In this document: in pieces, positions 2,721 to 18,286 of the stretch
Position numbering within the stretch: the stretch's first letter is position 1
Layout: each line of letters begins with the position of its first letter
Assembly: GCA_017403985.1 (NCBI GenBank)
Contig: JAFRDE010000023.1
Span: forward strand, 1-64,000
DNA from: Ruminococcus sp.
GTDB taxonomy: Bacteria; Bacillota; Clostridia; Oscillospirales; Acutalibacteraceae
Direction: 5' to 3'
Length of the DNA stretch: 64,000 nt
Program-made: the position numbers and the translations under genes
The notes under the pieces: generated by a model
What the model saw: only the letters and a program-made list of their open reading frames with translations
Databases searched by the model: none
What the model was told of the DNA's origin: nothing

Positions 2721-2739
2721 TTACGATCCTTATATGACG

Positions 2740-2767
2740 AAAGCGTGAGGCAGGTACCTCACGCTTT
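2740..2767. terminator. bidirectional hairpin terminator
   Basis: An 11-bp perfect stem (AAAGCGTGAGG / CCTCACGCTTT) with a 6-base loop separates the convergent SnoaL-like and LysR genes. It overlaps the last codons of the LysR gene. Confidence 0.75.
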
Positions 2768-3649: not shown

Positions 3650-3741
3650 ACGATCACCTCATTTATATGGTCATTATACCACATTTTTAAATTGTAGCAA
3701 GACAAAAGTGATGATTTATGTTATGATGTCAAAAAGGAGAG

Positions 3742-4368: not shown

Positions 4369-4533
4369 TTCTTTTTGAAATCGCTTTTACAGCGTGTTTT
4401 GTCGCACAATAAATACCCGAAAGCGGTTCGACATCTTATATGCCGAGATCTCTGACACTGAGGATGTGTCCGCTTTTCCGATTTCTCATTGAAGGAAGAA
4501 CTGAAAAGCTACCCCATCACAGCATAAAAAGCA

Positions 4534-4573
4534 CCCGCCTGTTCACATCGCGTGAGCAGGCGGGATTATTTTA
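4534..4573. terminator. hairpin terminator
   Basis: A 13-bp stem with one G-U pair (4534-4546 with 4552-4564) and a 5-base loop is followed by a T-rich run. A-rich sequence on the other side could serve sfsA in the opposite direction. The rest of 4369-4605 shows no gene. Confidence 0.7.
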
Positions 4574-4605
4574 AATAGATAAAATTATATCGGGTAAATA
4601 AGAAT

Positions 4606-5331
4606 TTATAGGTCTGTGCTTTTCTCTACGCTGTGAAGAGTTACTCCTTCCGGTCTAAAATCCATCTGAACCTCCCAAAACTCAACGCCTGCCTTTGCAG
4701 CATCCGTAAAAGTTTGCGACACCTCTTCATAATGAGTTGACCTGAGCCGTTCCTTCTTTTCTGTAATGCGATATTGAAACACCTGCAGAAAAATTGCCTT
4801 CTCATGATCCTTAAGCGACTCAGCAAGCTCCTTAAGGTGCTTTACCATCCTGTCTGTTGATGAAAACGACTTAGGGGGAAGCGTCTTTATGTTCTTCCCG
4901 TATTTTACATTGATTGTTGTCAGCGGAGTCTTTACTTCCAAATAAACATCTCCAACTTTGAAATCCAGTTTGGATATTCCCAGTTTCACTTCTCGCTGAA
5001 CGCTGTCGAAATTCGAAACGATCGCGTCCAGCTCGTGTTCACAGAAAAAGAACTCTACCAGCCTGTTGGAAAGGATTTGATTGATTCCTATCCAGTTTTC
5101 ATCATCGGAAAGAAGCACTGCCTCAATATCGTATTTCAGCTTGCGTTTAGGATCATCATGATATGATAAAAGACACGGCAGATTCTTGTTTTCTACATCA
5201 CCGATGCGGTTTGTCGTCGGGATATGCGCCGTCAATTCTACTCCGTCTATATCTACCAAAGCTGTGAACTGACTTTTTCTTTTCAACAGAGTTCCTCTGG
5301 TAAGAGGTTTCTCAAATAGATACTTACTCAT
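4606..5331 (-). CDS. sfsA: SfsA-family DNA/RNA nuclease
   Basis: The 241-residue product matches SfsA in length and motifs: an N-terminal OB-like part (LTRGTLLKRKSQFTALVDID, AHIPTTNRIGD) and a nuclease-like core with DVYLEVKTPLTT, where E and K are the expected PD-(D/E)xK residues. SfsA was named for sugar-fermentation stimulation and is now regarded as a nuclease. The start is the ATG at 5331, which overlaps the cupin stop as ATGA and gives the family's usual length; the open frame extends further upstream. Confidence 0.85.
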   Translation of the reverse strand: MSKYLFEKPLTRGTLLKRKSQFTALVDIDGVELTAHIPTTNRIGDVENKNLPCLLSYHDDPKRKLKYDIEAVLLSDDENWIGINQILSNRLVEFFFCEHELDAIVSNFDSVQREVKLGISKLDFKVGDVYLEVKTPLTTINVKYGKNIKTLPPKSFSSTDRMVKHLKELAESLKDHEKAIFLQVFQYRITEKKERLRSTHYEEVSQTFTDAAKAGVEFWEVQMDFRPEGVTLHSVEKSTDL

Positions 5332-5657
5332 TTCTTCACCACAACAGTCAGCATGACCAAATCTTCCTCTCCAACATTGATGATAGAGTGCATTGATCCT
5401 TTCGGGCAGATATGCAAGACTCCCGGTCTCAATTCTTCCTCGATGCCATCGCAAATTGCTTTGCCCATTCCGCTGATAATATAATTCATGTCATCTCCGG
5501 ACTCCTGCTTGTGGCTGCCAATGCTTCCGCCCGGATGAATAGCTGTCGGAATAATCCGATAGGAATCGTCGTTATACATACGGGCGCTCATCGTACCGGT
5601 GCCATTATTCATCCCCGGCAGTGTCATTGATTCTATCTTGTTGAAATCTATCTGCAA
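5328..5657 (-). CDS. small cupin-domain protein
   Basis: The product is a single-domain cupin with HPGGSIGSHKQES and GDDMNYIISGMGKA as the first metal-binding motif, and PGVLHICPKGSMHSIINVG as the second. Such proteins are often sugar isomerases or sensors; the substrate is unknown. A TTG at 5655-5657, placed 8 bases after GGAGG, fits the ribosome site better than the upstream ATG and gives 109 residues. It is coupled to sfsA by a 4-base overlap. Confidence 0.75.
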   Translation of the reverse strand: MQIDFNKIESMTLPGMNNGTGTMSARMYNDDSYRIIPTAIHPGGSIGSHKQESGDDMNYIISGMGKAICDGIEEELRPGVLHICPKGSMHSIINVGEEDLVMLTVVVKK

Positions 5658-5726
5658 GATTGCCACCTCCACAAATTCCGATTTATCTTTCCAAAAGTAT
5701 AGCACAAAACAAAAGATATGAAAAGG

Positions 5727-5749
5727 GGGAGTATCAAAATGATACTCCC
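5727..5749 (-). terminator. hairpin following a tRNA-Ala 3' fragment
   Basis: A 9-bp perfect stem (GGGAGTATC / GATACTCCC) with a 5-base A-rich loop lies just downstream, on the minus strand, of a partial copy of the tRNA-Ala 3' end. Confidence 0.55.
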
Positions 5750-5757
5750 AAAATTTG

Positions 5758-5771
5758 TGGTGGAGATAAGC
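5758..5771 (-). repeat. partial copy of the tRNA-Ala 3' end
   Basis: Fourteen bases (TGGTGGAGATAAGC on the plus strand) are identical to 5998-6011, the 3' acceptor end including CCA of the real tRNA-Ala gene. The copy is in the same orientation and is followed by its own hairpin. It matches the fragment-plus-terminator units downstream of tRNA-fMet. Confidence 0.6.
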
Positions 5772-5850
5772 TCCCTTTCTTCTGTAGGAAATCAGTTGCC
5801 CCGTCTTGGGTGCGTCACCTCCTGTCAGAAGTCGCGCCTACGCTCTCCTT

Positions 5851-5875
5851 AAAAATGATTCACTGAATCATTTTT
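5851..5875. terminator. A/T-rich hairpin
   Basis: Twelve bases (AAAAATGATTCA) are followed almost directly by their exact complement ending in a run of T. It could terminate plus-strand transcription. The stretch 5772-5953 otherwise shows only tRNA-derived pieces. Confidence 0.4.
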
Positions 5876-5917
5876 ACCTTCGGTTCTTCGCACGGCTTGA
5901 ACCTCGGCACAGTCGCC

Positions 5918-5934
5918 TTCGAATCCGCTTATCT
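5918..5934 (+). repeat. inverted copy of the tRNA-Ala T-arm/acceptor segment
   Basis: Seventeen bases (TTCGAATCCGCTTATCT) on the plus strand are identical to the T-loop/acceptor segment of tRNA-Ala, which is encoded on the minus strand at 6004-6020. The two therefore form an inverted repeat about 70 bases apart. Confidence 0.6.
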
Positions 5935-5953
5935 GCCACTTTGCTGGTATAAT

Positions 5954-5994
5954 CAGAAAGAACGGATATCCTTTGTGGATATCCGTTCTTTCTG
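5954..5994 (-). terminator. terminator of tRNA-Ala
   Basis: An 18-bp perfect stem (5954-5971 with 5977-5994) with a 5-base loop starts 4 bases beyond the CCA end of the tRNA gene. Confidence 0.75.
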
Positions 5995-5997
5995 AAA

Positions 5998-6073
5998 TGG
6001 TGGAGATAAGCGGATTCGAACCGCTGACCTCTTGAATGCGAACCAAGCGCTCTACCAACTGAGCTATACCCCC
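5998..6073 (-). tRNA. tRNA-Ala (anticodon CGC)
   Basis: The 76 bases fold as a full cloverleaf. The acceptor GGGGGTA pairs with TATCTCC and carries the G3-U70 wobble that identifies alanine tRNAs. The anticodon stem CTTGG/TCAAG encloses loop TTCGCAT, giving anticodon CGC. The T-loop is TTCGAAT, and CCA is encoded in the gene. Confidence 0.92.
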
Positions 6074-6297
6074 ATGCCACTTTTGGTATTATACAACACT
6101 TTTTTTGATTTGTAAAGTGTAAAACGAATTTTTTTTAGCCGGGACGATTCCGACCGATCGCGGATCCGCTCATCGACCTGTTAGGCAAAATCAACAAAAT
6201 GAGCCTTTGCAAATTTGACACCGAAATGATAAAAACCTATGGCAAACCGGATTCAACTGTGCTATAATGAGTCCAACATATAAAAGGAGGGGTTCCC

Positions 6298-6801
6298 ATG
6301 TTCCGGTCCAATCATCTGTTAAAATCCATCGTCTGTCTTGCGCTTGTCTTAATGTGCATCGCGTCTGTCGCGCTGCTTGGCGGCTGCGGCAGCAGTAAAA
6401 TCACCGTTCCGGATCTCGTCGGCTTGACGAAGGAAGAGGCGGAGGCAAAGGTCGCCGAGCTGGGCGCGGTGCTGAACGTTCAGCGAGAGAGATACTCCAA
6501 GAAGAACCCTGCGGGCTCTATCGACGCCATGATCACCAAGGTCGGTGATACCGTTGAAAAAGACGGCGAGATCAGAGTCGTCGGCAGTCTCGGCGAAGGC
6601 GTTGAGGTCCCGAATATCAGCGTCCTCACCGGTAAGGAAGGCGCCAACCTCGTGTCCAAGGTCGGTCTGAATCCGATCGTTGTCGAAGAATTCAGCGACG
6701 AGGTCGAAGAAGGCAACATCATCTCCTACACCGACGGCGGACAGACCATTCCCAAGGGCGCAGACGTCACCATCACCGTCAGCAAGGGTCCCGAAAGCTG
6801 A
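6298..6801 (+). CDS. PASTA-domain lipoprotein
   Basis: This 167-residue protein has a lipoprotein signal (lipobox LLGGC, Cys30) followed by two PASTA domains, about residues 34-97 and 98-165. Each starts with a VPDLVG/VPNIS-type motif and ends in TITVSKGP-like sequence. PASTA domains bind muropeptides and usually sit on Ser/Thr kinases or PBPs. Here they are on a stand-alone lipoprotein with no kinase domain, so a cell-surface or cell-wall sensing role is inferred. AAGGAGG precedes the ATG by the usual spacing. A TATAAT at 6263-6268 is a likely -10 box. Confidence 0.85.
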   Translation: MFRSNHLLKSIVCLALVLMCIASVALLGGCGSSKITVPDLVGLTKEEAEAKVAELGAVLNVQRERYSKKNPAGSIDAMITKVGDTVEKDGEIRVVGSLGEGVEVPNISVLTGKEGANLVSKVGLNPIVVEEFSDEVEEGNIISYTDGGQTIPKGADVTITVSKGPES

Positions 6802-6835
6802 TAAACGGCAATTGAATACTGAAATACAACGGTCG

Positions 6836-6866
6836 CCGACGCGGGTATTCCTCGCGTCGGTGTTTT
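6836..6866 (+). terminator. rho-independent terminator of the PASTA lipoprotein gene
   Basis: The stem CCGACGCG (6836-6843) pairs with CGCGTCGG (6853-6860) and is followed by TGTTTTTT. Confidence 0.8.
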
Positions 6867-7025
6867 TTATAGCGTATATTCTAAGCGAAAACTGCAAATA
6901 TCTATCGCAGAAAATCCCGCATAGCGGCTGCACGGTCGAGGGAGAAAAAACTAACAGTGCCTGTCGCATATGCAGCAGGCACTGTGATTGTATCAATTAT
7001 AATTATTGAACCGCGTCCGTATCTC

Positions 7026-8390
7026 TTACTTCAAATTCCAGCTGCTTACGTTGAGCTGTCCGTCCTCGCTCGCTCCGGTGGCGTAGAGAGTACCGTCGTC
7101 CTTCAGCGCTACAGAATAGTAACCGCCCGCGGCGACCTCTGTTACATGAGTCCATGTTTCGGTATCACAGCGGTTATCATAGTTGACGCCTACCGCTACG
7201 ACCTTGCCGGTGCTCGTTAAGCCCATAGTATGATGATAACCTGCCGAGATCGCGACGATATCCGACCAGCCGGAGGTCTCAGTCTCGCCGCTCATATTAA
7301 CGCCTGTCGCTACAACGGTGCCGTCGCTCTTCAGACCGACCGTGTGATCGTCGCCGACAGCGATCGCAACGATATTCGTCCAGCCGGTGACATTACACTG
7401 ACCTTCGTCGTTGCCGCCTACCGCTACAACGGTGCCGTCGCTCTTCAAGCCGACGCTGTGATGATAGCCTGCCGCGATCGCGACAATATCCTTCCATCCG
7501 GATACGTCGGATTGACCGTCGTCTTCGTCGCCTGCCGCGACGACCGTTCCGTCATTCTTCAGACCGAGGGAATGGAAGGTGCCTGCGGCTACGCTCTTGA
7601 TGTTGCTCCATGTGCTGACGTCGCACTGTCCGAATACATTGGAACCCGTTGCTACCACCTTGCCGTCAGCCTGAACGCCGAGGGTATGCTCATAACCCGC
7701 GGAGATCGTAACGATATTTGACCAGCCGCTGACGTCGCACTGACCGTCTCCGTTGTTGCCGACCGCGATGACGGTGCCGTCGGACTTGATGCCTACCGTA
7801 TGCGTACCGCCGGCGGAAACCGTAGCGTTTTCACTGCCCGTGACAGTGATATCGTCACCGCCGCCTATCGCGATCGTTTCCGTATTGTTGCCGGGGATGA
7901 TATTCGGTTTTGCGGAATTGGCGGAGATCACGATCGCCACCACGGCTATAATCACGATCAACAGCGCAGCGCCGCCGATGATCAAGCCGATCAGCAACCC
8001 TTTGCTCATGCCTTTCTTCGGCGGAGCGGGCATATTGCCGTCGCCGGGATAGTTGATGCCGCCCGGTTGATTCGGAACGGGATTCTGCGCATAATTCGTC
8101 CCCTGCTGATAATCGTTATACGGCTGCTGACCGTAACCCGGCACATTGTAATCCGGCGCGCCGTAGGGCTGACCCTGAGGCTGATCGGAATAAACCTGAT
8201 TATCGCCCTGCACAGGCGCCTGATCGCCGTAGCTCTGTGCGTTCGGATCGCTGTAGCCGCTCTGAGCATCCGCTCCGTCAAAAGCGCCCGGTAAAAGCTG
8301 CTGCGCACCGCAATGAGGACAATAGGTGCTGGTCATACCTTCCGCAGCTTCAAAAATCTCACCGCAGTTTGTACATCTGAAATAAGCCAT
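7026..8390 (-). CDS. zinc-ribbon membrane protein with seven RCC1-like repeats
   Basis: This 454-residue protein has, in order: a cytoplasmic zinc ribbon (Cys6/Cys9/Cys24/Cys27); a Gln/Pro/Tyr/Asn-rich linker to about residue 125; one membrane helix (about 131-156); and an outside domain from about 185 built of seven repeats of about 37 residues. Each repeat has the form AGxxHTVGLKSDGTVVAxGxNxxGQCDVSGW, typical of the RCC1/regulator-of-chromosome-condensation propeller family. Seven repeats are enough for a closed seven-bladed propeller. Function is unknown; a surface-exposed binding role is inferred. The start follows AGGAGG closely. Confidence 0.8.
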   Translation of the reverse strand: MAYFRCTNCGEIFEAAEGMTSTYCPHCGAQQLLPGAFDGADAQSGYSDPNAQSYGDQAPVQGDNQVYSDQPQGQPYGAPDYNVPGYGQQPYNDYQQGTNYAQNPVPNQPGGINYPGDGNMPAPPKKGMSKGLLIGLIIGGAALLIVIIAVVAIVISANSAKPNIIPGNNTETIAIGGGDDITVTGSENATVSAGGTHTVGIKSDGTVIAVGNNGDGQCDVSGWSNIVTISAGYEHTLGVQADGKVVATGSNVFGQCDVSTWSNIKSVAAGTFHSLGLKNDGTVVAAGDEDDGQSDVSGWKDIVAIAAGYHHSVGLKSDGTVVAVGGNDEGQCNVTGWTNIVAIAVGDDHTVGLKSDGTVVATGVNMSGETETSGWSDIVAISAGYHHTMGLTSTGKVVAVGVNYDNRCDTETWTHVTEVAAGGYYSVALKDDGTLYATGASEDGQLNVSSWNLK

Positions 8391-8726
8391 AATTACCTCC
8401 TGACATCTCTTTTCGAGATGATTCTATAGCTGTCTTGCGGGCAGTCCTCCCGCCGTAAAAATCTTTCGTTATCTCAGGACAGATCGGCAGCCGGCGGCAA
8501 TGACTCACGGATGCGGGACGCGCACAGCACAGCCGCCCGCAGCCTTGCGAAAGCGTGATCCGTCGTGAAAACAACCGCCTTATGACACGATCCTTCCTGA
8601 AGCAGAACCGATTAATACAGATACTATTATATTATCATAAACGCTATATTGTCAATGCAAAAAGACTATCTTTTGCACAAAATAAACAAATTAACCACTG
8701 TTACGGCGATTCGCCTTCTTTCGCCC
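8391..8726. other. intergenic stretch without a recognisable gene
   Basis: Between the RCC1-like gene and the tRNA-fMet promoter no convincing coding frame is visible. Part of it must carry the promoter of the leftward RCC1-like gene. The base composition becomes A/T-rich from about 8600. Confidence 0.5.
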
Positions 8727-8755
8727 TTGACAAATACCCTATTCGGTGGTACCAT
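8727..8755 (+). promoter_or_regulatory. promoter of tRNA-fMet
   Basis: A perfect TTGACA -35 (8727-8732), a 17-base spacer and a TACCAT -10 (8750-8755) lie 23 bases ahead of the tRNA gene. Confidence 0.75.
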
Positions 8756-8777
8756 ATAGAGGCTGAAAGGCAGATAT

Positions 8778-8854
<77 letters not shown>

Positions 8855-8872
8855 AGGTTACTATAACCTAAG

Positions 8873-8904
8873 CAACCCCGATATCATAGGCGTTATCGGG
8901 GTTG
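8873..8904 (+). terminator. phage-borne terminator downstream of tRNA-fMet
   Basis: An 11-bp perfect stem (CAACCCCGATA / TATCGGGGTTG) with a 10-base loop lies 18 bases beyond the tRNA, inside the prophage. Confidence 0.75.
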
Positions 8905-8948
8905 TTCAATTTCTGCAGTTGTCTAACTTCGGCTAAAATTGCCCTCGT

Positions 8949-8980
8949 AACTAACACACAACTAACACACAACTAACAAA
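8949..8980 (+). promoter_or_regulatory. left attachment-site arm repeats (candidate integrase arm sites)
   Basis: Three direct repeats of AACTAACACAC/AACTAACAAA with an 11-base period end in TCG. The same motif recurs twice, in the same orientation and with the same period, at 59030-59050 just inside attR. Repeats of this sort flanking a core are typical arm-type binding sites of tyrosine integrases. Confidence 0.65.
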
Positions 8981-9026
8981 TCGAAAATGGGACAGCGCAC
9001 GTTTTTCAGCGTTAAACGTGCAATCT

Positions 9027-9066
9027 AAAACGCACGGTGCGTTATATAAGCGTTACCGTGCGTTTT
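9027..9066. terminator. hairpin terminator at the left end of the leftward phage transcripts
   Basis: A 12-bp perfect stem (AAAACGCACGGT / ACCGTGCGTTTT) lies just beyond the stop of the last leftward phage gene. Confidence 0.7.
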
Positions 9067-9071
9067 ATTGT

Positions 9072-9275
9072 TTATTCGATTGTGTTAAGCAGCTTTTCAA
9101 GTCCGAGATCCATTTCCTGCCATGTGGTAAGAGCGTTTTTGGCTGCCTTCGACGGCGTTTCAAAGTTTATGCTTTGCCAGATCTCGATTTCGTTCTTTCG
9201 GTGCCGTTCCGTCCAGATAATGTAATTTCTGAGCAGCTCCCACTGTTCGCGGGTTAATGTGATCTTGTCGTCCAT
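9072..9275 (-). CDS. small phage protein, function unknown
   Basis: This 67-residue, probably all-helical protein (Trp- and Glu-rich) has no recognised domain. A ribosome site (AGAAAGGG) precedes the ATG. It is the last leftward gene before attL. Confidence 0.6.
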   Translation of the reverse strand: MDDKITLTREQWELLRNYIIWTERHRKNEIEIWQSINFETPSKAAKNALTTWQEMDLGLEKLLNTIE

Positions 9276-9331
9276 AGTGTACCCTTTCTCCCCGTATAGC
9301 CGATAGGTCAGCTGATTATTATTTTAAATGA

Positions 9332-9595
9332 TTATAATGCGCCGTAGTATTTAAGCCTAAAATCTATCCACATCTTTAAGTCTTTTATATTGCCTCCCCG
9401 TCGTTTGTTGATCGAATGATACGAAACTTTCCCGTCAGGAGTTGTTAATCGGTATTCTCTGTGTCTATCGCGCAAGTCAAAAGAATCGGGATGAACGGTC
9501 AACGTTTCAATTTTTATCCCTCTATATTCTTGTATTCTGTCAACACGCTCCCACTGTGCAACATCGTCATTCCAGTAGAATTTTGTGTCTTTCAT
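9332..9595 (-). CDS. small phage protein, function unknown
   Basis: The 87-residue product begins at an ATG with AAGGAGA upstream (9595). The frame is open further upstream, but that part runs through the operator repeats and lacks a ribosome site. The protein is basic and rich in Arg, Asp and Tyr, without a recognised domain. It is divergent from the ribbon-helix-helix gene across three operator-like repeats and is probably controlled by it. Confidence 0.65.
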   Translation of the reverse strand: MKDTKFYWNDDVAQWERVDRIQEYRGIKIETLTVHPDSFDLRDRHREYRLTTPDGKVSYHSINKRRGGNIKDLKMWIDFRLKYYGAL

Positions 9596-9636
9596 TTCAA
9601 ATTCTCCTTTACTTGTTTTAGTGTCTATATTATAAT

Positions 9637-9720
9637 ATATTGTACCCGATATATCAATACGCAAAACTACCAATATTGTACCCGATATATTGTGCAATTT
9701 GTATATTGTACCCGATAGAT
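9637..9720. promoter_or_regulatory. triple operator between divergent genes
   Basis: The 18-mer ATATTGTACCCGATATAT occurs at 9637-9654 and 9673-9690, and with one change at 9703-9720. The starts are 36 and 30 bases apart, close to whole helical turns. It lies between the divergent 87-residue gene and the ribbon-helix-helix gene, the expected place for the latter to bind. Confidence 0.7.
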
Positions 9721-9764
9721 AAATATGATACAATGTACTTACCCTATTATGAGGTGGTGAAGCT

Positions 9765-9956
9765 ATGACGATAAGCAAGGCTCAAATGAAAGCAACGGCA
9801 AAGTATATGAAAAACAATTATGACGAAATCAAAATCCGCGTACCGAAAGGCGACAAAGCGCTTATCAAGGCATACGCGGATAGTAACGGCGAAAGCGTGA
9901 ACGAATTTATCAAAAGAGCTATTTCAGAGGCTATGCATAAGGATAATCAGACATAA
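9765..9956 (+). CDS. Arc/CopG-type ribbon-helix-helix DNA-binding protein
   Basis: This 63-residue protein has a basic N-terminus, then a beta-strand-like KIRVPKGDKALIKAYADSNG and the helix pair SVNEFIKRAISEAM, the pattern of the ribbon-helix-helix family. It is one of few rightward genes at this end of the phage and has GAGGTGG before its ATG. It probably represses itself and the divergent gene through the triple repeat. A bidirectional terminator follows. Confidence 0.8.
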   Translation: MTISKAQMKATAKYMKNNYDEIKIRVPKGDKALIKAYADSNGESVNEFIKRAISEAMHKDNQT

Positions 9957-9960
9957 GAAA

Positions 9961-9990
9961 AAAGCCCGCAGCATGATCGCTGCGGGCTTT
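9961..9990. terminator. bidirectional terminator
   Basis: A 12-bp perfect stem (AAAGCCCGCAGC / GCTGCGGGCTTT) with a 6-base loop lies between the convergent ribbon-helix-helix and XRE genes. Confidence 0.85.
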
Positions 9991-9996
9991 GCCTTA

Positions 9997-10212
9997 TTAT
10001 GATATTTTTTTGTTTGGCTCGTACTTTAACAGGTCGGATATATCACAACCAAGCACCTCGCATATTCTGTCGATATGATCGAGGTTTACTTTTTCAATCA
10101 GTTCGTGATACATTTCGTTGATTGTCGCAGGTCTGATACCCGTTTTGCGTGATAATTCCACCTGTGTCATACGTCTTTCGCCTAATAAGGTTGATAGTTT
10201 TATTCGTATCAT
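9997..10212 (-). CDS. XRE-family (Cro/CI-like) regulator
   Basis: The 71-residue product is almost entirely a helix-turn-helix domain: MTQVELSRKTGIRPATINEM is the HTH, ending in VLGCDISDLLKY. It belongs to the short XRE group (YozG/Cro type). The ATG at 10212 is the first that gives a complete domain. The upstream A/T-rich region is full of ATAATAAC/GTTATTAT elements that could be its operators. The same leader GGGGCGTTATTATG precedes the small hydrophobic peptide at 11094. Confidence 0.8.
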   Translation of the reverse strand: MIRIKLSTLLGERRMTQVELSRKTGIRPATINEMYHELIEKVNLDHIDRICEVLGCDISDLLKYEPNKKIS

Positions 10213-10260
10213 AATAACGCCCCGTGTAACATAATAACACAATGCGTTATATAATAACGT
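10213..10260. promoter_or_regulatory. operator-like GTTATTAT repeats
   Basis: Several ATAATAAC/GTTATATAATAACG elements cluster directly upstream of the XRE gene. They fit autoregulation, but no binding sequence is known. Confidence 0.35.
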
Positions 10261-10292
10261 AAAACGTAGTAATATTACGGTATTCGTAATTT

Positions 10293-11057
10293 TCAGTAAT
10301 TTGTTATGATTACCTCTTTGTATTCCGCGCAATACTCAACCTTAGACGGTAAACTATTGATTCTGCCAACTCCCCGTATATTACAGCCGTGATACAGCTT
10401 TCGTACCAGTTCACAGTCATTGTAAGAAAGAATAAACTTGCCTTTTATTTCGGACAGGCATTTACATAAGCGTTCGTGATCTTCCAGACCAAAATTGCAA
10501 TACTTTTTGTTGTAATACTGCTCCGCGCCTACATAGGGTGGATCAACGTAAAATACAGCGTCCGCACGATCATATGTTGATATCAGATTTTCAAAATCCC
10601 TGTTTTCAATTATAACGTCCTTTAGCCTTTCTTTAAAGGCGGGCAGATCGTGAACAATATTTACAGGACGTGCTGTACGAGTTGAGAAAGAGCCGCGATT
10701 ACTGCCAAAGCTGCAGCGAATAAGGTATAAGTATCGCGCTGCCCGCTGCAGATCAGAAAGCGCATTATCCTCTTTCATTTCTTCGCGGTATTCGGCAAAT
10801 AGCTCGCGGGATTGTAGCCAATCTATTTCTTTTTGAAGTTCGGCGCAGTGATATTTTATCTGTCGATAAAGGTTAATCAGATCACCGTCAATATCGTTAA
10901 ATACTTCCATTTGACCTGTAACCTTATCTTTGCCAAACAACACCCAACCTGCGCCCCCGCATACTTCAATATAGCGGGAGCAGCTGTCGGGTATTAAAGG
11001 AATAATATGTTTTTTGAGTTGGCTTTTGCCACCAATCCAACCTATAAAACTTCGCAT
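10293..11057 (-). CDS. Dam-type D12-class N6-adenine DNA methyltransferase
   Basis: The product of about 254 residues has the D12-class layout. FIGWIGGKSQL near the N-terminus binds S-adenosylmethionine with the help of YIEVCGGAG, and DPPY (about residues 172-175) is the catalytic motif. No restriction enzyme gene is nearby, so it is a solitary phage methylase that could protect phage DNA or affect gene control. The ATG at 11057 has GGAGA 8 bases upstream and fits better than the ATG 5 codons earlier. Confidence 0.85.
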   Translation of the reverse strand: MRSFIGWIGGKSQLKKHIIPLIPDSCSRYIEVCGGAGWVLFGKDKVTGQMEVFNDIDGDLINLYRQIKYHCAELQKEIDWLQSRELFAEYREEMKEDNALSDLQRAARYLYLIRCSFGSNRGSFSTRTARPVNIVHDLPAFKERLKDVIIENRDFENLISTYDRADAVFYVDPPYVGAEQYYNKKYCNFGLEDHERLCKCLSEIKGKFILSYNDCELVRKLYHGCNIRGVGRINSLPSKVEYCAEYKEVIITNY

Positions 11058-11093
11058 TATTATCATCTCCATAATAGAATTAGGGGCGTTATT

Positions 11094-11192
11094 ATGAAAA
11101 TGATGTTATTGCAACATTTAATCGCGTTATTGATACATTTTGTATTGTTTTTGCAAAAACAATCAATTAAATTGCAATTATTGAGCAATTAA
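11094..11192 (+). CDS. 32-residue hydrophobic peptide, candidate small membrane peptide
   Basis: An ATG preceded by AGGGG at 7 bases opens a frame of 32 codons (MKMMLLQHLIALLIHFVLFL, then a basic tail with QKQSIKLQL). It points opposite to its neighbours and has one membrane-spanning stretch. Its size, hydrophobic core and charged tail resemble type I toxin peptides, but no antisense RNA can be proven. The leader GGGGCGTTATTATG is identical to the one ahead of the XRE gene. The rest of 11058-11247 shows no gene. Confidence 0.4.
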   Translation: MKMMLLQHLIALLIHFVLFLQKQSIKLQLLSN

Positions 11193-11247
11193 CAGTTTAC
11201 AAATCAGTTTACATATTGGTTTACGATTTGGTGTATTAGTTGGTGAA

Positions 11248-12180
11248 TCAGGCTTTTTTGAGGTTGCTGACCTTAATATCAGCGGTAACAGCCTTGCCGA
11301 TACCGATCACAGCCCTATCGCCCTTGATCTGGATAACGTCGTACTTATCGAAATAGGTCTTAAACGGTTTGCCGTCGTAGGTAACAGCATTAACAACCCT
11401 TACCTTATCGCCGACGCTAATGCTGCCCGTAATCAGGGCAAGGTTGGAGGCTTTCACGGGCGCGACAACCGTTTTGCCGATACCGATAACAACGCGATCA
11501 CCCTTTACCTCGATAATGTCATACTTGCCGTAGTAGGTTTTAAAAGGCTTGCCGTCGTAGGTTACGGCATTTGTAACCTTGACAACGTCGCCAACCTTAA
11601 AGGCAGCGGCGCTCTGAGTGGGGGCGGTAGTCTGTGCGGAGGACGCGGGGTTGCTTTCGGTCTTTGTCGCCTTGCTTGCGAATTTCGGGGTTACAAAGCC
11701 GCGAATATACCTGCCGTTAATGGCAAGGGTACGGCGTCCGACGTTCAAAGCGCCCATATTGCCCTCAAGCACCGTCATAGTGCCTTTAGCCTTATTGACG
11801 CTTTCAATGGTGCCGACGTGTTCAGGATCCCCGACACAGTCACCCTTGCCGTTGTCGTCCCAATCGTAAAGCACCTTATCGCCGACGTTCGGGACATAGG
11901 CGTCGTTTTCGACCCAAATGCCCGCAGCCTTTGCGAGCTTAATCATCTGCCCGCAGGAACATTCATAACACGGGAAAATATCGCCAAGCCCTACGGCGCT
12001 CATGGCAGCCGAGGCTGTTGTCGCACAGTGCGGATCGTTGAGCGTCATTTTATAACGCTTGCAGCGCCCCGATTTGTTAAACTCGTCAAGGATTTTTTGA
12101 TGTGCAGCGGATTTCTGCTTTGTGCCGACCATAGCCTGCAGCCATTTTACAGGTTGTAACCTGAGTTCGTTTTCAGTCAT
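11248..12180 (-). CDS. endolysin: CHAP-type amidase/peptidase with two C-terminal wall-binding repeats
   Basis: The 310-residue product has an N-terminal CHAP/NlpC-P60-like domain to about residue 165. Cys52 in DPHCATT is the probable nucleophile and His121 in DPEHVGTIE the base, with EGN following. After a Ser/Thr/Ala linker come two near-identical repeats of about 50 residues starting VGDVVKVTNAVTYDGKPFKT, probably SH3-like cell-wall binding units. It should cleave host peptidoglycan at lysis. Start at 12180 follows AGAAAGGG. Holin and a GH25-like gene are close by. Confidence 0.8.
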   Translation of the reverse strand: MTENELRLQPVKWLQAMVGTKQKSAAHQKILDEFNKSGRCKRYKMTLNDPHCATTASAAMSAVGLGDIFPCYECSCGQMIKLAKAAGIWVENDAYVPNVGDKVLYDWDDNGKGDCVGDPEHVGTIESVNKAKGTMTVLEGNMGALNVGRRTLAINGRYIRGFVTPKFASKATKTESNPASSAQTTAPTQSAAAFKVGDVVKVTNAVTYDGKPFKTYYGKYDIIEVKGDRVVIGIGKTVVAPVKASNLALITGSISVGDKVRVVNAVTYDGKPFKTYFDKYDVIQIKGDRAVIGIGKAVTADIKVSNLKKA

Positions 12181-12194
12181 AACTAACACCCTTT

Positions 12195-12401
12195 CTATTC
12201 TGTGACATCGAAAATAACGGTTGTTTCTGTGGTGTTCCCCGAAACCAGTCCGCTATTAAATTTTACCTTTGTTTGTACTACCGCCCCGACAATACTGTCA
12301 GGACGGTAATAGGTACATTCTTTGTTTTCATTTATTCCCAAGTCAACAACGGCGTCGTCGGGAATACGCGAAACGATCTGCTTTAAATCTTTTCCAGTCA
12401 T
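12195..12401 (-). CDS. small phage protein in the lysis region, function unknown
   Basis: The 68-residue product begins MTGKDLKQIVSRIPDDAVVD, a form often seen in short phage proteins next to lysis genes. It is otherwise unrecognised and lies between the endolysin and a small membrane protein. Confidence 0.65.
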   Translation of the reverse strand: MTGKDLKQIVSRIPDDAVVDLGINENKECTYYRPDSIVGAVVQTKVKFNSGLVSGNTTETTVIFDVTE

Positions 12402-12410
12402 ATTACCGCC

Positions 12411-12530
12411 TTACTTTCTGTTCGCCATCTTCTCACGCCATGCGAGGGAAGAAATAAAGGCGGCGCAGGTTCCTACGCCGCCCACAAAGCCGCCAAATAA
12501 GCCGATAATCAAACCGACAACCCAAGACAT
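12411..12530 (-). CDS. small Gly-rich membrane protein
   Basis: The 39-residue frame reads MSWVVGLIIGLFGGFVGGVG and continues to a basic end (REKMANRK). One Gly-zipper-like membrane helix is clear. It lies in the lysis cluster, so a role as holin partner or antiholin is possible. It starts just 2 bases after the GH25-like gene. Confidence 0.6.
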   Translation of the reverse strand: MSWVVGLIIGLFGGFVGGVGTCAAFISSLAWREKMANRK

Positions 12531-12531
12531 A

Positions 12532-13038
12532 TCAGTTTACCCCCTGTTCCTTTTCGTCGCTCACAGGGGCGTCTGCGGGCTGTTTCGCGGCGGTTTTCTT
12601 CGTCTTGATCTTAACCTCTGTTGTTGAAACAGGTACACCGTCGATCAAGACCTTTTCACCCCGTTTGAGAACAGCCGCATTATAGCCCGCAGCCTGCAGC
12701 TCGTCACAGAAAGCCTTAGCAATCTCTGCGTTAGTTGCGTCAATATAGATCGGCAGGTCAAGCTGCTTTTCTTTCAGATTGTCAAGCACAACAAGGCAGC
12801 CTGCAGCTTCAACCCGTGCCATACGAGCGTTGCGGGCGTATGTCTGCCAGTATGCGCCGACTTTAAGACCTGCCGCTTTCGCGTTTTCGCAGTTGCGCTC
12901 GTAATAATTGTCGATCTGCGAGCTGTAAGCGCCAAAACCTAAGCGGCAAAGGGCAAAGACAAACCCCGCCTTTTTCGCCTTAGCAAAGTTCACAATGCCG
13001 TCCCATACCGAAACAACGATACCTTTTGATAAAGACAT
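12532..13038 (-). CDS. degenerate GH25 (lysozyme-like) protein lacking catalytic residues
   Basis: This 168-residue protein follows the GH25 muramidase pattern: SKGIVVSVWDG, AGLKVGAYWQTYA, LPIYIDATN and FCDELQAAGYNA. The first catalytic position of the family's GIDVS is Val8 here, and the Glu of DxE is Thr102 (IDAT). The last third of the barrel is missing and replaced by a Lys/Pro-rich tail. It is therefore probably not an active lysozyme, though it may keep a wall-binding or regulatory role. It lies between holin and endolysin. Confidence 0.7.
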   Translation of the reverse strand: MSLSKGIVVSVWDGIVNFAKAKKAGFVFALCRLGFGAYSSQIDNYYERNCENAKAAGLKVGAYWQTYARNARMARVEAAGCLVVLDNLKEKQLDLPIYIDATNAEIAKAFCDELQAAGYNAAVLKRGEKVLIDGVPVSTTEVKIKTKKTAAKQPADAPVSDEKEQGVN

Positions 13039-13040
13039 AT

Positions 13041-13460
13041 CTAATCCCCCTTATTCTTTTTTGTAAGCACGTCGATTGCCTTAGTGATAACATCAGGCAA
13101 CGGCAAGCCCATAAGTCCCGCGTTTTCAACGATAGAAATGCTCTCGTTCGCACAGAAAGCTATTACAACGGCGTCACGGATATAGTTTGTTCCGATTGCC
13201 AGATCAAGCCTGTACGCAACGAGGACAATTAAAAGAGCCATGCCCTTACGACACAGCCCTTTCCAACCTGCGCGGCTCTCGAGCGCCCCGCTTGCGGTCT
13301 TTTTCGATTGTTTGAAAACGCCTGCGACGACCAACCCGCTTATATAGTCAATCGCCATAAAAATACATAGTGTTGTCATTCCGTAAGTCCACCCGCCGAG
13401 CAGAGTAGTGATTAAGCCACCGACTAAGCCCGTTACGGTGCTTACAATTTTCCCGTACAT
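13041..13460 (-). CDS. phage holin (holin_4/TcdE-like family)
   Basis: This 139-residue membrane protein has two or three hydrophobic helices (LVGGLITTLLGGWTYGMTTL, AIDYISGLVVAG, ALLIVLVAYRLDLAIG). It also carries the SRAGWKGLCRKG segment characteristic of the toxin-secretion/phage-lysis holin family. It forms the pores that release endolysin. AGGAGGT precedes its start. Confidence 0.85.
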   Translation of the reverse strand: MYGKIVSTVTGLVGGLITTLLGGWTYGMTTLCIFMAIDYISGLVVAGVFKQSKKTASGALESRAGWKGLCRKGMALLIVLVAYRLDLAIGTNYIRDAVVIAFCANESISIVENAGLMGLPLPDVITKAIDVLTKKNKGD

Positions 13461-13473
13461 TTCGTGTACCTCC

Positions 13474-14310
13474 TTAGGTTAAGCCTAACTCAGCTTTAAG
13501 CTCTGCGCTTAATTTGTCTTTTGTGATAGAGCCGTCAACAAGGGCGCTCCCGTATATCAAGGTTTTTTGCGTCAGCACGCCGTCCTCTATGGTGAAGAAA
13601 TACCCGTTATCCATAGCCAACATACCGTTATACGAAAGATACACACCGAAATCGGCATTGTGAGTAATGCTTTTCAATGAGCCATTACCTACATTGAAAT
13701 ACAATATTACAACATCGTTGTCGCTCTCGTTGTCGTCGATCATATCCTCAAGGTCGCCTAACGTATACGCCGTACCGCCGAAAGCTGCTGTATGAAGCGT
13801 CGCGTCAATCTTAGACGTCGGCAGCGAGTAGTCCGCAATAGGAAGATCAACCTTTATGAACGTCGCACCGCTATACTTTAACGTGATACCCTTTTTAGGG
13901 AACGTAATAACCTCTTGTCTGCAGTTGAGTTCGCCCGCGTCGCCGCGTGATACACCATAAGCGCTAAAAAGATTGCCGCCAACGGTAAAGTATACTATCA
14001 CGCTTTCGTCTTTAGCTTTACCCTGCTGCATATAGCTGACAAGGTTGCCGACCGCCGTCACTTCTCCTACGTCGTAACGAATATAAAACAGCTTATTGTT
14101 AAGGTAGTCTTGCATATTATTTACGACTGTCAGAATTTGAGAAAACAACACAGACACTTTCGTCCAAAACCAGTTAAAGTAAGCAGCAGGCGGCTTGTAG
14201 CCAGAAAGAAAACCTTGCGAACGCATGGAGGACGGCGGCGCTGCGCCGCTTGCCGACCAGTTCGGGGCTTCTTCGGTGATCGTTGTTTTACTGTACTTTG
14301 TCGCCATCAT
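13474..14310 (-). CDS. putative tail-fibre/appendage protein
   Basis: This 278-residue protein has an N-terminal segment (GFLSGYKPPAAYFNWFWTKV) frequent at the start of phage fibre proteins. Beta-rich repeated units follow, and the C-terminus contains GSALVDGSITKDKLSAEL, a short helical end often seen on fibres. It overlaps the preceding small gene as ATGA. It lies downstream of the DGR and upstream of holin, the usual place for fibre genes. Confidence 0.6.
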   Translation of the reverse strand: MMATKYSKTTITEEAPNWSASGAAPPSSMRSQGFLSGYKPPAAYFNWFWTKVSVLFSQILTVVNNMQDYLNNKLFYIRYDVGEVTAVGNLVSYMQQGKAKDESVIVYFTVGGNLFSAYGVSRGDAGELNCRQEVITFPKKGITLKYSGATFIKVDLPIADYSLPTSKIDATLHTAAFGGTAYTLGDLEDMIDDNESDNDVVILYFNVGNGSLKSITHNADFGVYLSYNGMLAMDNGYFFTIEDGVLTQKTLIYGSALVDGSITKDKLSAELKAELGLT

Positions 14311-14591
14311 TCGCCCTCGCTTTCATCCTGTGCTGCCTCCTCAGCGGCTTTCGCAGCCTCGGCAGCTTTCTTATCGTCCAAGTCCTTTTCAAAGGCTATG
14401 CGCTCTGCTTCGGCTTCTTCTATGGTTTCTGCCGTAGATACGACACCCATTGAGTTAAGCAAGCGCTTATGCCCCGCTAAGTCCTCTATGAATTTGACCC
14501 CGTCTTTCTCGAAAATATAAACGTCGCCGTGAAGATCACGACGACGCTTTCTTTTCTCTATAACGGGATCGGTTCCGTTTTTTATAATCAT
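14307..14591 (-). CDS. small charged protein next to the DGR reverse transcriptase
   Basis: The 94-residue product has a basic N-terminus, a middle with YIFEKDGVKFIEDL, and a long Ala/Glu/Lys-rich helical tail. It does not look like the barrel-forming Avd accessory protein of other DGRs. It starts only 3 bases after the reverse transcriptase stop and is coupled to the fibre gene, so it may be a fibre accessory. Confidence 0.6.
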   Translation of the reverse strand: MIIKNGTDPVIEKRKRRRDLHGDVYIFEKDGVKFIEDLAGHKRLLNSMGVVSTAETIEEAEAERIAFEKDLDDKKAAEAAKAAEEAAQDESEGE

Positions 14592-14593
14592 TA

Positions 14594-15787
14594 TTATGCT
14601 ACTCCTTTCAGCAGTGCATTTCGGCGCTTTGCGTCGTTGCTAATGATTTTTTTAAGTTTACCAATACCGATAGGATATACATACTTCGTATAGGCATGGT
14701 AGCTGTCGGTACAATGCTTTAGCTGCCCTATACGGCTGATTATTCCCTGAGCCATTTTGACGGGTATAGATAGCCCTTGCCGCAGTTTCTTCATAGCCCG
14801 CCTGCATTGTCGTATCAGGCGCAGAAAATTCTTTTTACATATTGTAATACGATCTCTGCTGATACGATAACCTACGGTTGCTATCCTGCGGCTACGTTTG
14901 ACCTTTTCTTTGCCTTTCTCGGTGTAGTGCTTATCTTGATACACCTTGAATACCTGCCAATCGCTCTTTAAGGTGACGCCCAACAGCTCGCTCATGTAAG
15001 CGCTGATAGCGTCAACGGCTCTGTGCAGCTTTCGCTTGTTTCTACCTGCTATAATAATGTTATCCATGTTGCGGCTTTCATAGTACACACCGTCAAGGGT
15101 AAGTATATACCTGTCAAGTGCTTCAAGGTAGTAGTTTCCGAGCCATTGACTAAGGATCATGCCGATATGCAGCCCGACTTTATCGCCTACAACATCATAA
15201 GGCGATAAGTTGTGCTCCATAGCGTACTTTAAACCCTGCGGATAGGACGACGCCGCAACCGCGATAAGCAGCAGGAATTTTTTGTCTTTGATTTTCCGCT
15301 CCAACGCCGCTATAACATTTTTCAGCGGTACGGACGGATAATACTTTTTAATGTCAAGCTCTGCAACATACTTAGAATTGCGGGCTTTCTGTTGCGCTAC
15401 CCTGACATTATATTTTAGCATACGCTTTGCGCCGCGTCCCTTTACCGAGGAACACGACCAAAAGTGCATACCGCGCATTATCACAGGCTTTAAAACCTCG
15501 GTTATAGCTGCAATTATAACGCCGTCATGGCTAAACGGCTGTATAGCAAGCTCGCGTTCCTTTTTGGAACACTTGTCATAAATAACCTTGATTTTCGGCT
15601 GTGTCGGCGTGTAGTCGTAGTCCGCAAAGATACGATACATATGGTCAACCGTACCGTCAATATCTTTCACGACCTTTTTGACGTCGCGCCTTTTCTTCTT
15701 TTTCTTTTTGAGCGTTTCTTTGACGCAGGCTTTCAGAAAGTCTTTGTCTACTAACTGCTCATACAGGAAGCCTACCCGCTTAGGCAT
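14594..15787 (-). CDS. diversity-generating retroelement reverse transcriptase
   Basis: This 397-residue protein has the reverse-transcriptase motifs in order: AELDIKKYYPSVP (catalytic Asp145), IGMILSQ (208-214), the active-site block around 241-243, and the late TVGYRIS. IGxxxSQ in place of QGxxxSP is the hallmark of DGR enzymes. The active-site block reads MDN, so the second Asp of the usual YxDD is Asn243. The N-terminus is very basic. In DGRs this enzyme copies the template RNA with errors at adenines and the cDNA replaces the variable repeat. It follows the template repeat directly, and AAAGGAGAG precedes the ATG. No Avd gene is visible. Confidence 0.92.
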   Translation of the reverse strand: MPKRVGFLYEQLVDKDFLKACVKETLKKKKKKRRDVKKVVKDIDGTVDHMYRIFADYDYTPTQPKIKVIYDKCSKKERELAIQPFSHDGVIIAAITEVLKPVIMRGMHFWSCSSVKGRGAKRMLKYNVRVAQQKARNSKYVAELDIKKYYPSVPLKNVIAALERKIKDKKFLLLIAVAASSYPQGLKYAMEHNLSPYDVVGDKVGLHIGMILSQWLGNYYLEALDRYILTLDGVYYESRNMDNIIIAGRNKRKLHRAVDAISAYMSELLGVTLKSDWQVFKVYQDKHYTEKGKEKVKRSRRIATVGYRISRDRITICKKNFLRLIRQCRRAMKKLRQGLSIPVKMAQGIISRIGQLKHCTDSYHAYTKYVYPIGIGKLKKIISNDAKRRNALLKGVA

Positions 15788-15916
15788 TTTGTTTCTCTCC
15801 TTTTAAGCTGCAACATCTTTCAAATCCTTTCGGCTTACTAAATGCTGTCCTGTTCGCTTCTTTTTCAGCAAGGGCTGCGGAGGAAGAAACGCCATAATAT
15901 GGAGAGTAGACCTTAA
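15788..15916 (-). ncRNA. DGR spacer between template repeat and reverse transcriptase
   Basis: This stretch of about 129 bases separates the template repeat from the reverse transcriptase start. In characterised DGRs the corresponding transcript region binds the enzyme and primes cDNA synthesis. No gene with a ribosome site is visible here. Confidence 0.55.
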
Positions 15917-16026
15917 AAGGTGGCGAGCGCCGAGGTTGTTGTTGTTACCTACGTTGTTACTGTTACAATACGACAAGCCGTAGTTAGCGTTGTTGTTGTT
16001 ATAGACGGAGCCGCAATACAGCACAG
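15917..16026 (-). repeat. DGR template repeat (TR)
   Basis: These 110 bases match 16145-16254 without gaps at an offset of 228. On the coding (minus) strand the TR contains 12 AAC codons in a frame equivalent to the target gene (CGSVYNNNNANYGLSYCNSN and onward). The match has 12 differences, all at adenines of the TR coding strand (7 to G, 5 to T). AAC codons randomised at A can give 15 amino acids and never a stop. Confidence 0.95.
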
Positions 16027-16101
16027 CAGAGAACAGAAAACCCCGAACGGCGGCGTTTCTAACCCCTTATTAAATTTTTGATATATATAAACCCCTACGG
16101 G

Positions 16102-16125
16102 GCAAGGGGGAAGTGTCCCCCTTGC
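16102..16125 (-). promoter_or_regulatory. hairpin just 3' of the DGR variable repeat
   Basis: A 9-bp perfect stem (GCAAGGGGG / CCCCCTTGC) with a 6-base loop lies 19 bases beyond the variable repeat on the coding side. DGRs often carry such a GC-rich hairpin that promotes target recognition. A second short hairpin (CCCC TAC GGGG) follows at 16092-16102. Either could also terminate the target transcript. Confidence 0.6.
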
Positions 16126-16132
16126 AACCCCC

Positions 16133-18286
16133 TCAGGATAATTTAAGGAGGCGAGCGCCGAGGTTGCTGTCGTAACCTACGCTGTAACTGATACAATACG
16201 ACAAGCCGTAGCTAGCGCTGTCGTAGTCATAGACGGAGCCGCAATACAGCACAGGATAACTGCTACCACTCAGCCAAATCTGATCGCAGAAATAAGTATT
16301 ATAGCTGCCGTTGTTAACAGTTTGGCAAGGCATACACATAAACGGATGATCGGGATCCCAACCGTATGCTGCAATACAAGGATTGCTATAACGGGATGGT
16401 GCCTTATAAGACAACGTCACCATATTTTCCGTTGTATCTGCAAACTTCGTCGGGTCGTCGGTCACATAATAGTCACCGCCCCAATCAGGCATACAGACAC
16501 CGTCCCTGAATCGCCACATATTACCGACCCAGTCCTCAATACCATGCCAGCGCATTTGACCGTACACAACCTCAAAACCTGAGGACGTTTCGACACCATC
16601 TGTGCCGCCTGTATTACGCCTGCTGCTGCCGCCTGCGGTTCCTGTTCCGTATTCTCTACCTTTCATTACTGCCTGTGAGTTCTTGTTGGCAAACTCGATC
16701 CACCACAAGAACATCATAACGGTTGCATGGTACAAATCCTCCTGACAGTAACCGTTACCGTTTGCAGCCGCAGCCGTGCGGAATTGCGCTCTTGTCTTAT
16801 TGTACGCAGGCGTATATCCTGACTTACTGACAAGTTTATTGCTTTCCATATAGCCAAGATAGCAGCTATACATAAAGCTCGGCACCTCGTACCAATCGCC
16901 CTCTCCAGACGGCATAGCAGAAACAGCGATATCCGTTATGCGGTTTTCGTTATCCACGCCGACACGGAAAAACATATCAGGCATTTTGATAAACTTACCC
17001 GCTGCGTCGTCAACGATCTCTGCCTCATTCCACGGGAATACGTTGTCAAAGTCGCTGTCAACAGCGCCCGTCGAGGAATTGATAACAAAGTCCATATCCT
17101 CGGCGTCGTCTGTACGGGTAAGGGCAGGTGTGCTTGAATACAAGCCGCTGACGCCGTAGATCGGTGCTGTCCCCTTAAACCATGCTGCAGGATTTGAACG
17201 GTTAGTCGCTACACCTGTACCGATAGCGTTAAGCTCGACAAAGTGCTTGCCGTCCTGCACGACGTTAGTGTAAGAGGACAGGTCAATCGTGGATCCGCTA
17301 TTTGAAACGGTATCAAGCAGCGTACCGTCGACGTAAATGCCGTATGATGTGATACCGCTGATAACGTTAAGGATATTAAGGGTGTTACCCTGTATCTTGA
17401 TTGTAGCGCCGATATTATACGACATAGTAACATTATCAGAATTGTCGTAGCCCGACGCCTCCGACTGTACTTTGATCTCGTACATACCGTAAGCTGTGAT
17501 CGAGGACAGGTCGAATACCTGTGCGCTTGTTCCAGTATACGTTGTTTGGAGCGTCCCGTCAATATAAAGTTTTGTACTTTCTGCATATTGAGGGGGTGTA
17601 ACGGTAAGATTGGTGCCGCTAAGGGATAGTGTCGGGCGTCTGAGCTTAGGAGTACTAAGCGCCGACGCCTGAATAACAATGTTACCCGTTACCGCCGCAA
17701 AGGTAATGACGCCCGTGTAACTGTTGTATTCGTATTTGTTTGTAGCGACGCCGCCCATAGTAACGACGATATCCTCAGGCAGATAATAGCCGCTTGCAGG
17801 CGTAAGGGTTACGCTGTATGTTTGACCGTTGCCGATCAACGCAGTCGAATTGTTGGCGGTCAGGTGTTCAAGCGTCCGCGTAATGGTGTAGACCGAGGCA
17901 TTGATCTTATTACTGATAATACTATCACGAAAATAATTGCCAAAGGCTACAACATACAGCTCATAGGTGCCTGCGCCGAGCGCCGAAAGTGAAAACGACG
18001 TACTTGTAAGCTCCTGCAGCAGCGTCGAGCCGTTATACAGCTTGTACTTTCCAACAAAACCCCCGTTCGTTGACGGGTTGGATATGCTGACCGTGTCATT
18101 GTTACGGGTAAGGGTTACAGGATTTAACTGCGGTGCGGGTAAATTCCTGATTTCGTCAGGATAGTCAAAGGCGTCTTTACCCGTAAGATCAGCGCCTCTT
18201 GCTAATATCGCCTGCTTACAGCCGTCGATAACGGTAACGGCGTTGCCGACGTTATTTACTATCCTTTCAAAAGGTGTAAAGCTCAT
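16133..18286 (-). CDS. DGR target: variable receptor-binding tail protein with C-type-lectin/FGE-like domain
   Basis: The 717-residue protein starts with a tail-attachment segment (residues 1-50). Several beta-sandwich, fibronectin/Ig-like domains follow to about 380. The C-terminal domain from about 385 is of the formylglycine-generating-enzyme/C-type-lectin kind: FPWNEAEI, MRWHGIEDWVGNMWRFRDG, and the closing NLGAR. The last residues (about 678-714) are the variable repeat, where Asp, Tyr, Ser and Ile stand at positions that are Asn in the template. It is very likely the adhesin that binds the host surface. It starts by a 4-base overlap with the coiled-coil baseplate gene. Confidence 0.9.
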   Translation of the reverse strand: MSFTPFERIVNNVGNAVTVIDGCKQAILARGADLTGKDAFDYPDEIRNLPAPQLNPVTLTRNNDTVSISNPSTNGGFVGKYKLYNGSTLLQELTSTSFSLSALGAGTYELYVVAFGNYFRDSIISNKINASVYTITRTLEHLTANNSTALIGNGQTYSVTLTPASGYYLPEDIVVTMGGVATNKYEYNSYTGVITFAAVTGNIVIQASALSTPKLRRPTLSLSGTNLTVTPPQYAESTKLYIDGTLQTTYTGTSAQVFDLSSITAYGMYEIKVQSEASGYDNSDNVTMSYNIGATIKIQGNTLNILNVISGITSYGIYVDGTLLDTVSNSGSTIDLSSYTNVVQDGKHFVELNAIGTGVATNRSNPAAWFKGTAPIYGVSGLYSSTPALTRTDDAEDMDFVINSSTGAVDSDFDNVFPWNEAEIVDDAAGKFIKMPDMFFRVGVDNENRITDIAVSAMPSGEGDWYEVPSFMYSCYLGYMESNKLVSKSGYTPAYNKTRAQFRTAAAANGNGYCQEDLYHATVMMFLWWIEFANKNSQAVMKGREYGTGTAGGSSRRNTGGTDGVETSSGFEVVYGQMRWHGIEDWVGNMWRFRDGVCMPDWGGDYYVTDDPTKFADTTENMVTLSYKAPSRYSNPCIAAYGWDPDHPFMCMPCQTVNNGSYNTYFCDQIWLSGSSYPVLYCGSVYDYDSASYGLSYCISYSVGYDSNLGARLLKLS
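16145..16254 (-). repeat. DGR variable repeat (VR)
   Basis: The 3' end of the target gene is 89 percent identical to the TR. Eleven of 12 template AAC codons are changed by one base each, all at A (to GAC, TAC, AGC or ATC). A twelfth base change, A to T, lies just past the GC-rich block CTCGGCGCTCGCC that is the probable initiation-of-mutagenic-homing site. Confidence 0.95.

Follow-up and report, generated by a model that had tools for sequence, protein, structure and literature searches.

A prophage diversity-generating retroelement whose reverse transcriptase pairs a glutamate before motif A with an NMDN catalytic box

Can a reverse transcriptase (RT) that lacks the second aspartate of its YxDD box drive the adenine-directed variation of a diversity-generating retroelement (DGR)? 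The question is raised by a cassette at 14594-18286 on the minus strand of a 64,000-nucleotide stretch of a Ruminococcus sp. contig (JAFRDE010000023.1), the whole of which is called the window here. Target gene with variable repeat (VR), hairpin, template repeat (TR), spacer and RT gene follow one another in that order, and the cassette is a genuine DGR, ordinary as prophage DGRs go. We consider it probable that this prophage DGR rewrites the tip of a tail protein and that a paired switch in its RT, to Glu143 and Asn243, rebuilds the metal surroundings of the active site.

The TR/VR pair and its tail-protein target

TR and VR align over 110 nt without gaps at a spacing of 228 and differ at 12 positions, which on the TR coding strand are seven A>G and five A>T changes, with none at a non-adenine base. 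The probability of all 12 mismatches landing by chance on the 31 adenines among 110 positions is 2.5e-7 (binomial) or 4.0e-8 (hypergeometric). A preliminary description of this DNA had reported the same 110-bp pair and the same changes, which recomputation reproduced; it had also counted 11 of the 12 TR AAC codons as altered in the VR and 15 residues as reachable from each, and both statements hold, NNC codons covering 15 residues without any stop. At TR position 15921, the twelfth change (H to L) may be a difference between the initiation of mutagenic homing (IMH) and IMH* sequences instead of a mutagenesis event, because it lies at the 3' end, past a GC-rich stretch. Apart from itself and the VR, the TR has no match in the 2.68-Mb genome, and the scanner used for related loci found no other adenine-biased pair in window positions 1-15000, 17501-40000 and 40001-64000, nor any repeat pair in trinucleotide-shuffled loci of relatives (160 of 160 without one).

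All parts named in that description (target with VR, TR and RT, in order on one strand) were located where it had placed them. Its claim of a complete DGR stands, but it had overlooked the NMDN catalytic box and a 10-bp hairpin 3' of the VR; the VR does lie at the C-terminal end of the target but comprises 36 residues (679-714 of 717), not about 37. The end of the target, described as FGE/C-type-lectin-like, takes in its model the C-type-lectin/FGE fold that DGR variable proteins have, with the VR in the last strands, which bears that description out.

The target has a counterpart in another assembly (P0121) that is 98% identical, with 16 of 717 residues different, of which 11 fall inside the 36 VR residues (chance 3.7e-12). 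All 11 lie at the 18 of 36 codons that changes at TR adenines can alter (chance 5.3e-5), and, as far as the two sequences tell, this near-identical target displays VR turnover at TR-adenine codons. For P0121, P0122 and P0123 taken together, 32 of 32 VR differences are reachable from the window TR at the protein level; for eight more distant targets (P0124-P0131), 89 are reachable and 23 are not, as would be expected were their own TRs different. In the mechanism that we propose, the RT would reverse-transcribe the TR RNA, erring at adenines, and the mutated copy would replace the VR, altering the lectin-like tip of a tail protein that presumably binds a host receptor. The copying is probably performed by the window RT itself.

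Reverse transcriptase identity and the NMDN box

The RT carries the DGR motif (I/V/L)GxxxSQ in region 4, as IGMILSQ, it is nested, in a tree, among RTs that mostly adjoin adenine-biased TR/VR pairs, and the best structural match of its model is a solved DGR RT. These results substantiate the DGR-type assignment of the preliminary description, which had named grouping with group II intron or Abi enzymes as contrary evidence; the RT was instead placed among DGR RTs. A non-DGR RT (group II, retron or defence) is ruled out by profile scores, tree and model: the group II intron RT/maturase profile TIGR04416 gives 58.8 bits against a cut-off of 300, and that of the defence RT Drt3a (NF041747) 40.8 bits against 200. 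Many relatives with an xMDN box have SQ of the DGR motif replaced by CQ, DQ or NQ (as ICQ, IDQ, VNQ), and their TR/VR pairs are still adenine-biased.

The motif C box of the window RT is NMDN, not YxDD, so that it does not hold both aspartates and falls outside the DGR RT form described to date (DiGReF). The second Asp of motif C is given as 100% conserved in DGR RTs in the relevant passage of PMC3521204, and that of the YxDD/GDD box is described as invariant in RTs in passages of PMC3394715. Asn occupies this position in 118 of 121 aligned proteins among the matches listed (homologue counts here and below cover 120 of 253 homologues). The RT is under purifying selection (dN 0.105 and dS 1.01 against the RT of L002, with synonymous differences at both key-site codons), and sequencing error or decay as the source of NMDN is ruled out by this selection and by the listed homologues.

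A wider set of loci was drawn from two profile scans that gave 160 loci (80 of 358 and 80 of 134), with weaker matches added by a search of related genomes; the window figures twice in the 180 loci (as WIN and as L001), which also contain duplicates, L002/L020 for example. Adenine-biased repeat pairs occur at 124 of the 180. Among 179 RT open reading frames (ORFs), motif C ends in Asn (xxDN) in 25, with a pair at 17, and in Asp (xxDD) in 154, with a pair at 106. Five duplicate pairs were dropped from counts of distinct pairs, leaving 118; the 16 distinct xxDN pairs show 220 differences, 212 of them at TR adenines. Judged by these repeats, the xxDN form of the RT seems functional in nature. An unusual layout was seen at L119 (repeats at 9132-9255 and 9634-9757): in contrast to most loci, the RT precedes both repeats, and the adenine-biased copy is the first of the two.

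In a tree of 146 RTs, a single clade (support 99) nested in the xxDD DGR RTs holds 33 of the 35 xxDN rows. This tree was built with FastTree only, with the motif C columns removed, from 146 of 190 rows after removal of rows at least 92% identical; it includes 24 of the 120 proteins and omits L001, L004, L019, L020, L025, L056 and L068 as well as the weak RTs L011, L012 and L014-L018. L155 and L177 fall outside the main xxDN clade, giving three Asp/Asn changes in total on the tree, of which that of L177 is unsure in its independence because of a long branch; no relative of L177 was confirmed among viral contigs.

It is highly improbable that the RT is dead or dying and that the diversity of the VR is older or the work of another RT in trans. 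The second motif C Asp does matter for activity elsewhere in polymerases, according to passages of PMC3394715, and the genome has two further RVT_1 matches; against this stand the purifying selection on the RT, the retention of Asn over a diverse clade with adenine-biased TR/VR pairs, the VR turnover in the 98% identical target, and the outcome of a genome search with the window RT, which turned up no second RT at E <=0.001.

We also considered an altered mutation spectrum in xMDN RTs and rejected it. A>C is rarer there than in all xxDD loci (8.5% of 212 vs 16.8% of 1394, permutation p 0.025), but the difference vanishes against the sister clades (7.0% of 186 vs 9.3% of 321, p 0.42) and so looks like a lineage effect. 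Since adenine bias and base spectrum equal those of the sister clade, the Glu/Asn switch is apparently not what determines the mutagenic chemistry, and the unchanged spectrum suggests that the metal site is unrelated to the adenine errors.

The site two residues ahead of motif A

The residue two positions ahead of the motif A Asp is Lys in 96 of 111 xxDD rows and Gln in nine, whereas in xxDN rows it is Glu in 32 of 35, with Gln, Ala and Val once each and Lys in none. Among the homologues listed, 105 combine Glu with Asn, 13 Val or Ala with Asn and 3 Lys with Asp; Lys with Asn occurs in 0 of 118. The distant RT L155 has Glu and Asn, while its relatives L185 and L186 (71 and 73% identity) retain Lys and Asp; the comparison indicates that L155 acquired both changes separately from the main clade. 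Glu with Asn also occurs in L177 and in L200/L211, a gene split between two pieces of contig with at least 60 bases in common at their ends, and these are the two sites at which L155, L177 and the main clade all show the same complete difference.

According to passages of PMC3394715, a non-catalytic ion in RNA-dependent RNA polymerases (RdRps) and HIV RT is held by the second motif C position together with a residue that, in 8 of 10 polymerases, lies no more than three ahead of the motif A Asp, and loss of the second motif C Asp lowers activity, for which Mn2+ compensates in poliovirus RdRp and HIV RT. The two sites that switch in DGR RTs are these two ion-holding positions, hence our reading in terms of an ion site. 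In ordinary DGR RTs, Lys would face the second Asp where other polymerases keep the non-catalytic ion; in the xxDN clade, Glu together with Asn would supply the ion site again, and the paired replacement of Lys and Asp by Glu143 and Asn243 would rebuild the metal-binding surroundings of the active site. The predicted strands agree with such a rebuilt site, as in the model a single strand, 140-146, carries both Glu143 and Asp145, while Asp242 and Asn243 are found where strand 236-240 turns into strand 243-248.

More broadly, the evidence leaves it evenly balanced whether the active site of DGR RTs takes two forms, one combining Lys with Asp-Asp and one combining Glu with Asp-Asn, the latter of which arose at least twice by paired replacement rebuilding an ion site beside the catalytic metals, and would be the first natural RT lineage seen to sustain mutagenic reverse transcription without the second catalytic Asp. 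No description of a DGR RT form with Asn for the second Asp was found in titles and abstracts of open-licence PMC papers, supplements being outside this scope.

Several observations weigh against the coupled, ion-binding interpretation. By the criteria used, eight of the 25 xxDN rows have no repeat pair: L026 is narrowly below threshold, L032, L034 and L100 start near the edge of the fetched DNA, and the four others have none. Glu is not obligatory, given that 13 of 118 xxDN homologues among the matches listed have Val or Ala; L037 and L045 carry Gln at the site two before the motif A Asp. Group II RTs combine an acidic residue at the first site with YADD, so an acid there does not by itself require Asn. 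A test of independent pairs on 189 rows, including duplicates (L190 = L177; L199/L213; L193/L212), yielded only four pairs, three one way and one opposite (p 0.625), and is powerless. No gene for the accessory protein Avd was found in the window or its contig with the PF05635 profile, and the mechanism is built on sequence comparison and predicted strands.

Two further explanations were weighed. In one, the DGR is an ordinary one in which Asp to Asn is tolerated drift of no mechanistic consequence and Glu143 a lineage marker from the same branch. Most xxDN rows stem from one event, so the coupling mostly counts one ancestor repeatedly; the powerless pairs test and the presence of Val, Ala and Gln with Asn also favour drift. 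We nevertheless judge it unlikely: DGR RTs are reported to have an invariant second Asp (PMC3521204, in the passage cited), L155 changed both sites apart from the main clade and its close relatives neither, L177 and the split gene L200/L211 likewise have Glu and Asn, Lys accompanies Asn in neither the 35 rows nor the 118 listed homologues, and the same two sites differ fully and alike in L155, L177 and the main clade.

The other explanation, rather doubtful in our view, makes Glu143 a third carboxylate at the catalytic metals, a direct substitute for the lost Asp with no separate ion. Glu143 and Asp145 are two apart on one predicted strand and so likely point the same way, and the Glu/Asn form preserves the number of carboxylates; the rows with Val, Ala or Gln beside Asn, however, have no such carboxylate. 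The xxDN clade with its adenine signature is a natural experiment on the role of the second Asp, on metal choice and on the relation of the metal site to adenine errors, and searches that require YxDD would overlook such DGRs.

Cassette layout, surroundings and known systems

The features of the cassette are listed in Table 1. Of 118 loci, 80 have a hairpin with a stem of at least 7 bp in the 80 nt on the 3' side of the VR, compared with 7 of 117 in the 80 nt on its 5' side; in the relevant part of PMC3521204 a hairpin 3' of the VR is a feature of a subset of DGRs.

Table 1 Features of the DGR cassette in the window
Feature	Position	Strand	Remarks
Target gene	16133..18286	-	717 aa; predicted tail adhesin with C-terminal C-type-lectin/FGE-like domain
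VR	16145..16254	-	encodes target residues 679-714
Hairpin 3' of VR	16102..16125	-	stem 10 bp, loop 4 nt; starts 19 nt past VR end; fold z -2.68
TR	15917..16026	-	12 AAC codons, 31 adenines
Spacer between TR and RT	15788..15916	-	129 nt; likely part of the template RNA, by position and by analogy with the Bordetella phage DGR (passages of PMC12875486)
RT	14594..15787	-	DGR type, 397 aa; motif C NMDN
Glu143 codon	15359..15361	-	two residues ahead of motif A Asp145; Lys in most DGR RTs
Asn243 codon	15059..15061	-	replaces second catalytic Asp of YxDD

Avd is usual in DGRs, not universal. In the Bordetella phage DGR it is required (passages of PMC12875486). The only PF05635 match in the genome lies on contig C13, near its end, and RVT_1 matches are on C6, C16 and C21; among records of relatives, PF05635 matches anywhere in the record in 6 of 36 and in 0 of 16 viral ones, some of which are fragments. 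A divergent protein may take the place of Avd. A 94-aa gene 3' of the RT (14307-14591) was considered for this role and rejected: it has no Pfam or PHROGs match at 0.001 and a single chance-level one (E 0.093). Immediately 3' of the RT, 16 of 20 xMDN loci examined share a small gene (L021 9034-9438, L105 9148-9537, L130 9007-9531 and others), and a profile of it picked up 73 ORFs from the fetched loci. The L130 copy matches phage tail assembly chaperones, the L021 and L105 copies have no convincing match, and the 94-aa gene of the window did not group with this gene. The two further RVT_1 matches, on C6 (L183) and C16 (L182), are a 343-aa protein with YCDD that looks retron-like and a 693-aa protein encoded just after an exonuclease/endonuclease-looking gene (labels assigned by eye).

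The DGR is carried by a tailed prophage (terminase subunits, portal, head, sheath, tape measure, baseplate J, holin, endolysins, integrase) inserted in a tRNA-Met gene at 8778-8854. It probably extends from about 8.84 kb to 59.08 kb or beyond, because a 19-nt stretch at the tRNA-Met end (8837-8855) recurs at 59082, 59223 and 59647, with a shorter copy near 59156; repeated attachment sites and remnants of serial insertions are candidate readings of these copies. No near-identical DNA was found in phage records. The prophage also contains a Dam-type adenine methyltransferase gene (10293-11072, TIGR00571 above cut-off) and a tRNA-Gln (ttg, 48762-48835), and just outside it an RCC1-repeat protein with a zinc ribbon is encoded at 7026-8390.

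Among known systems, the solved DGR ribonucleoprotein (PDB 8ub7-8ube), which we take to contain the Bordetella phage BPP-1 enzyme, has an RT with Lys before motif A and YMDD, whereas the window RT has Glu and NMDN. Its Avd is required (passages of PMC12875486), whereas none was found in the window. The variable protein TaqVP of the Thermus aquaticus DGR (5vf4) is 16% identical to the target, with TM-scores of just 0.41-0.47 and a non-significant profile match (E 0.61). Birnavirus RdRp, as described in passages of PMC3394715, also has Asn at the second motif C Asp (ADN for GDD) but is an RNA polymerase with permuted motifs, so that kinship is not implied. The gut-phage DGRs of Firmicutes-type hosts come from a paper (PMC8144416) whose main text uses 'catalytic', 'motif' and 'YxDD' 0 times and whose relevant passages do not treat the RT catalytic box; as those passages present them, these DGRs are like that of the window in phage carriage, in a tail target with a C-type-lectin fold and in adenine bias.

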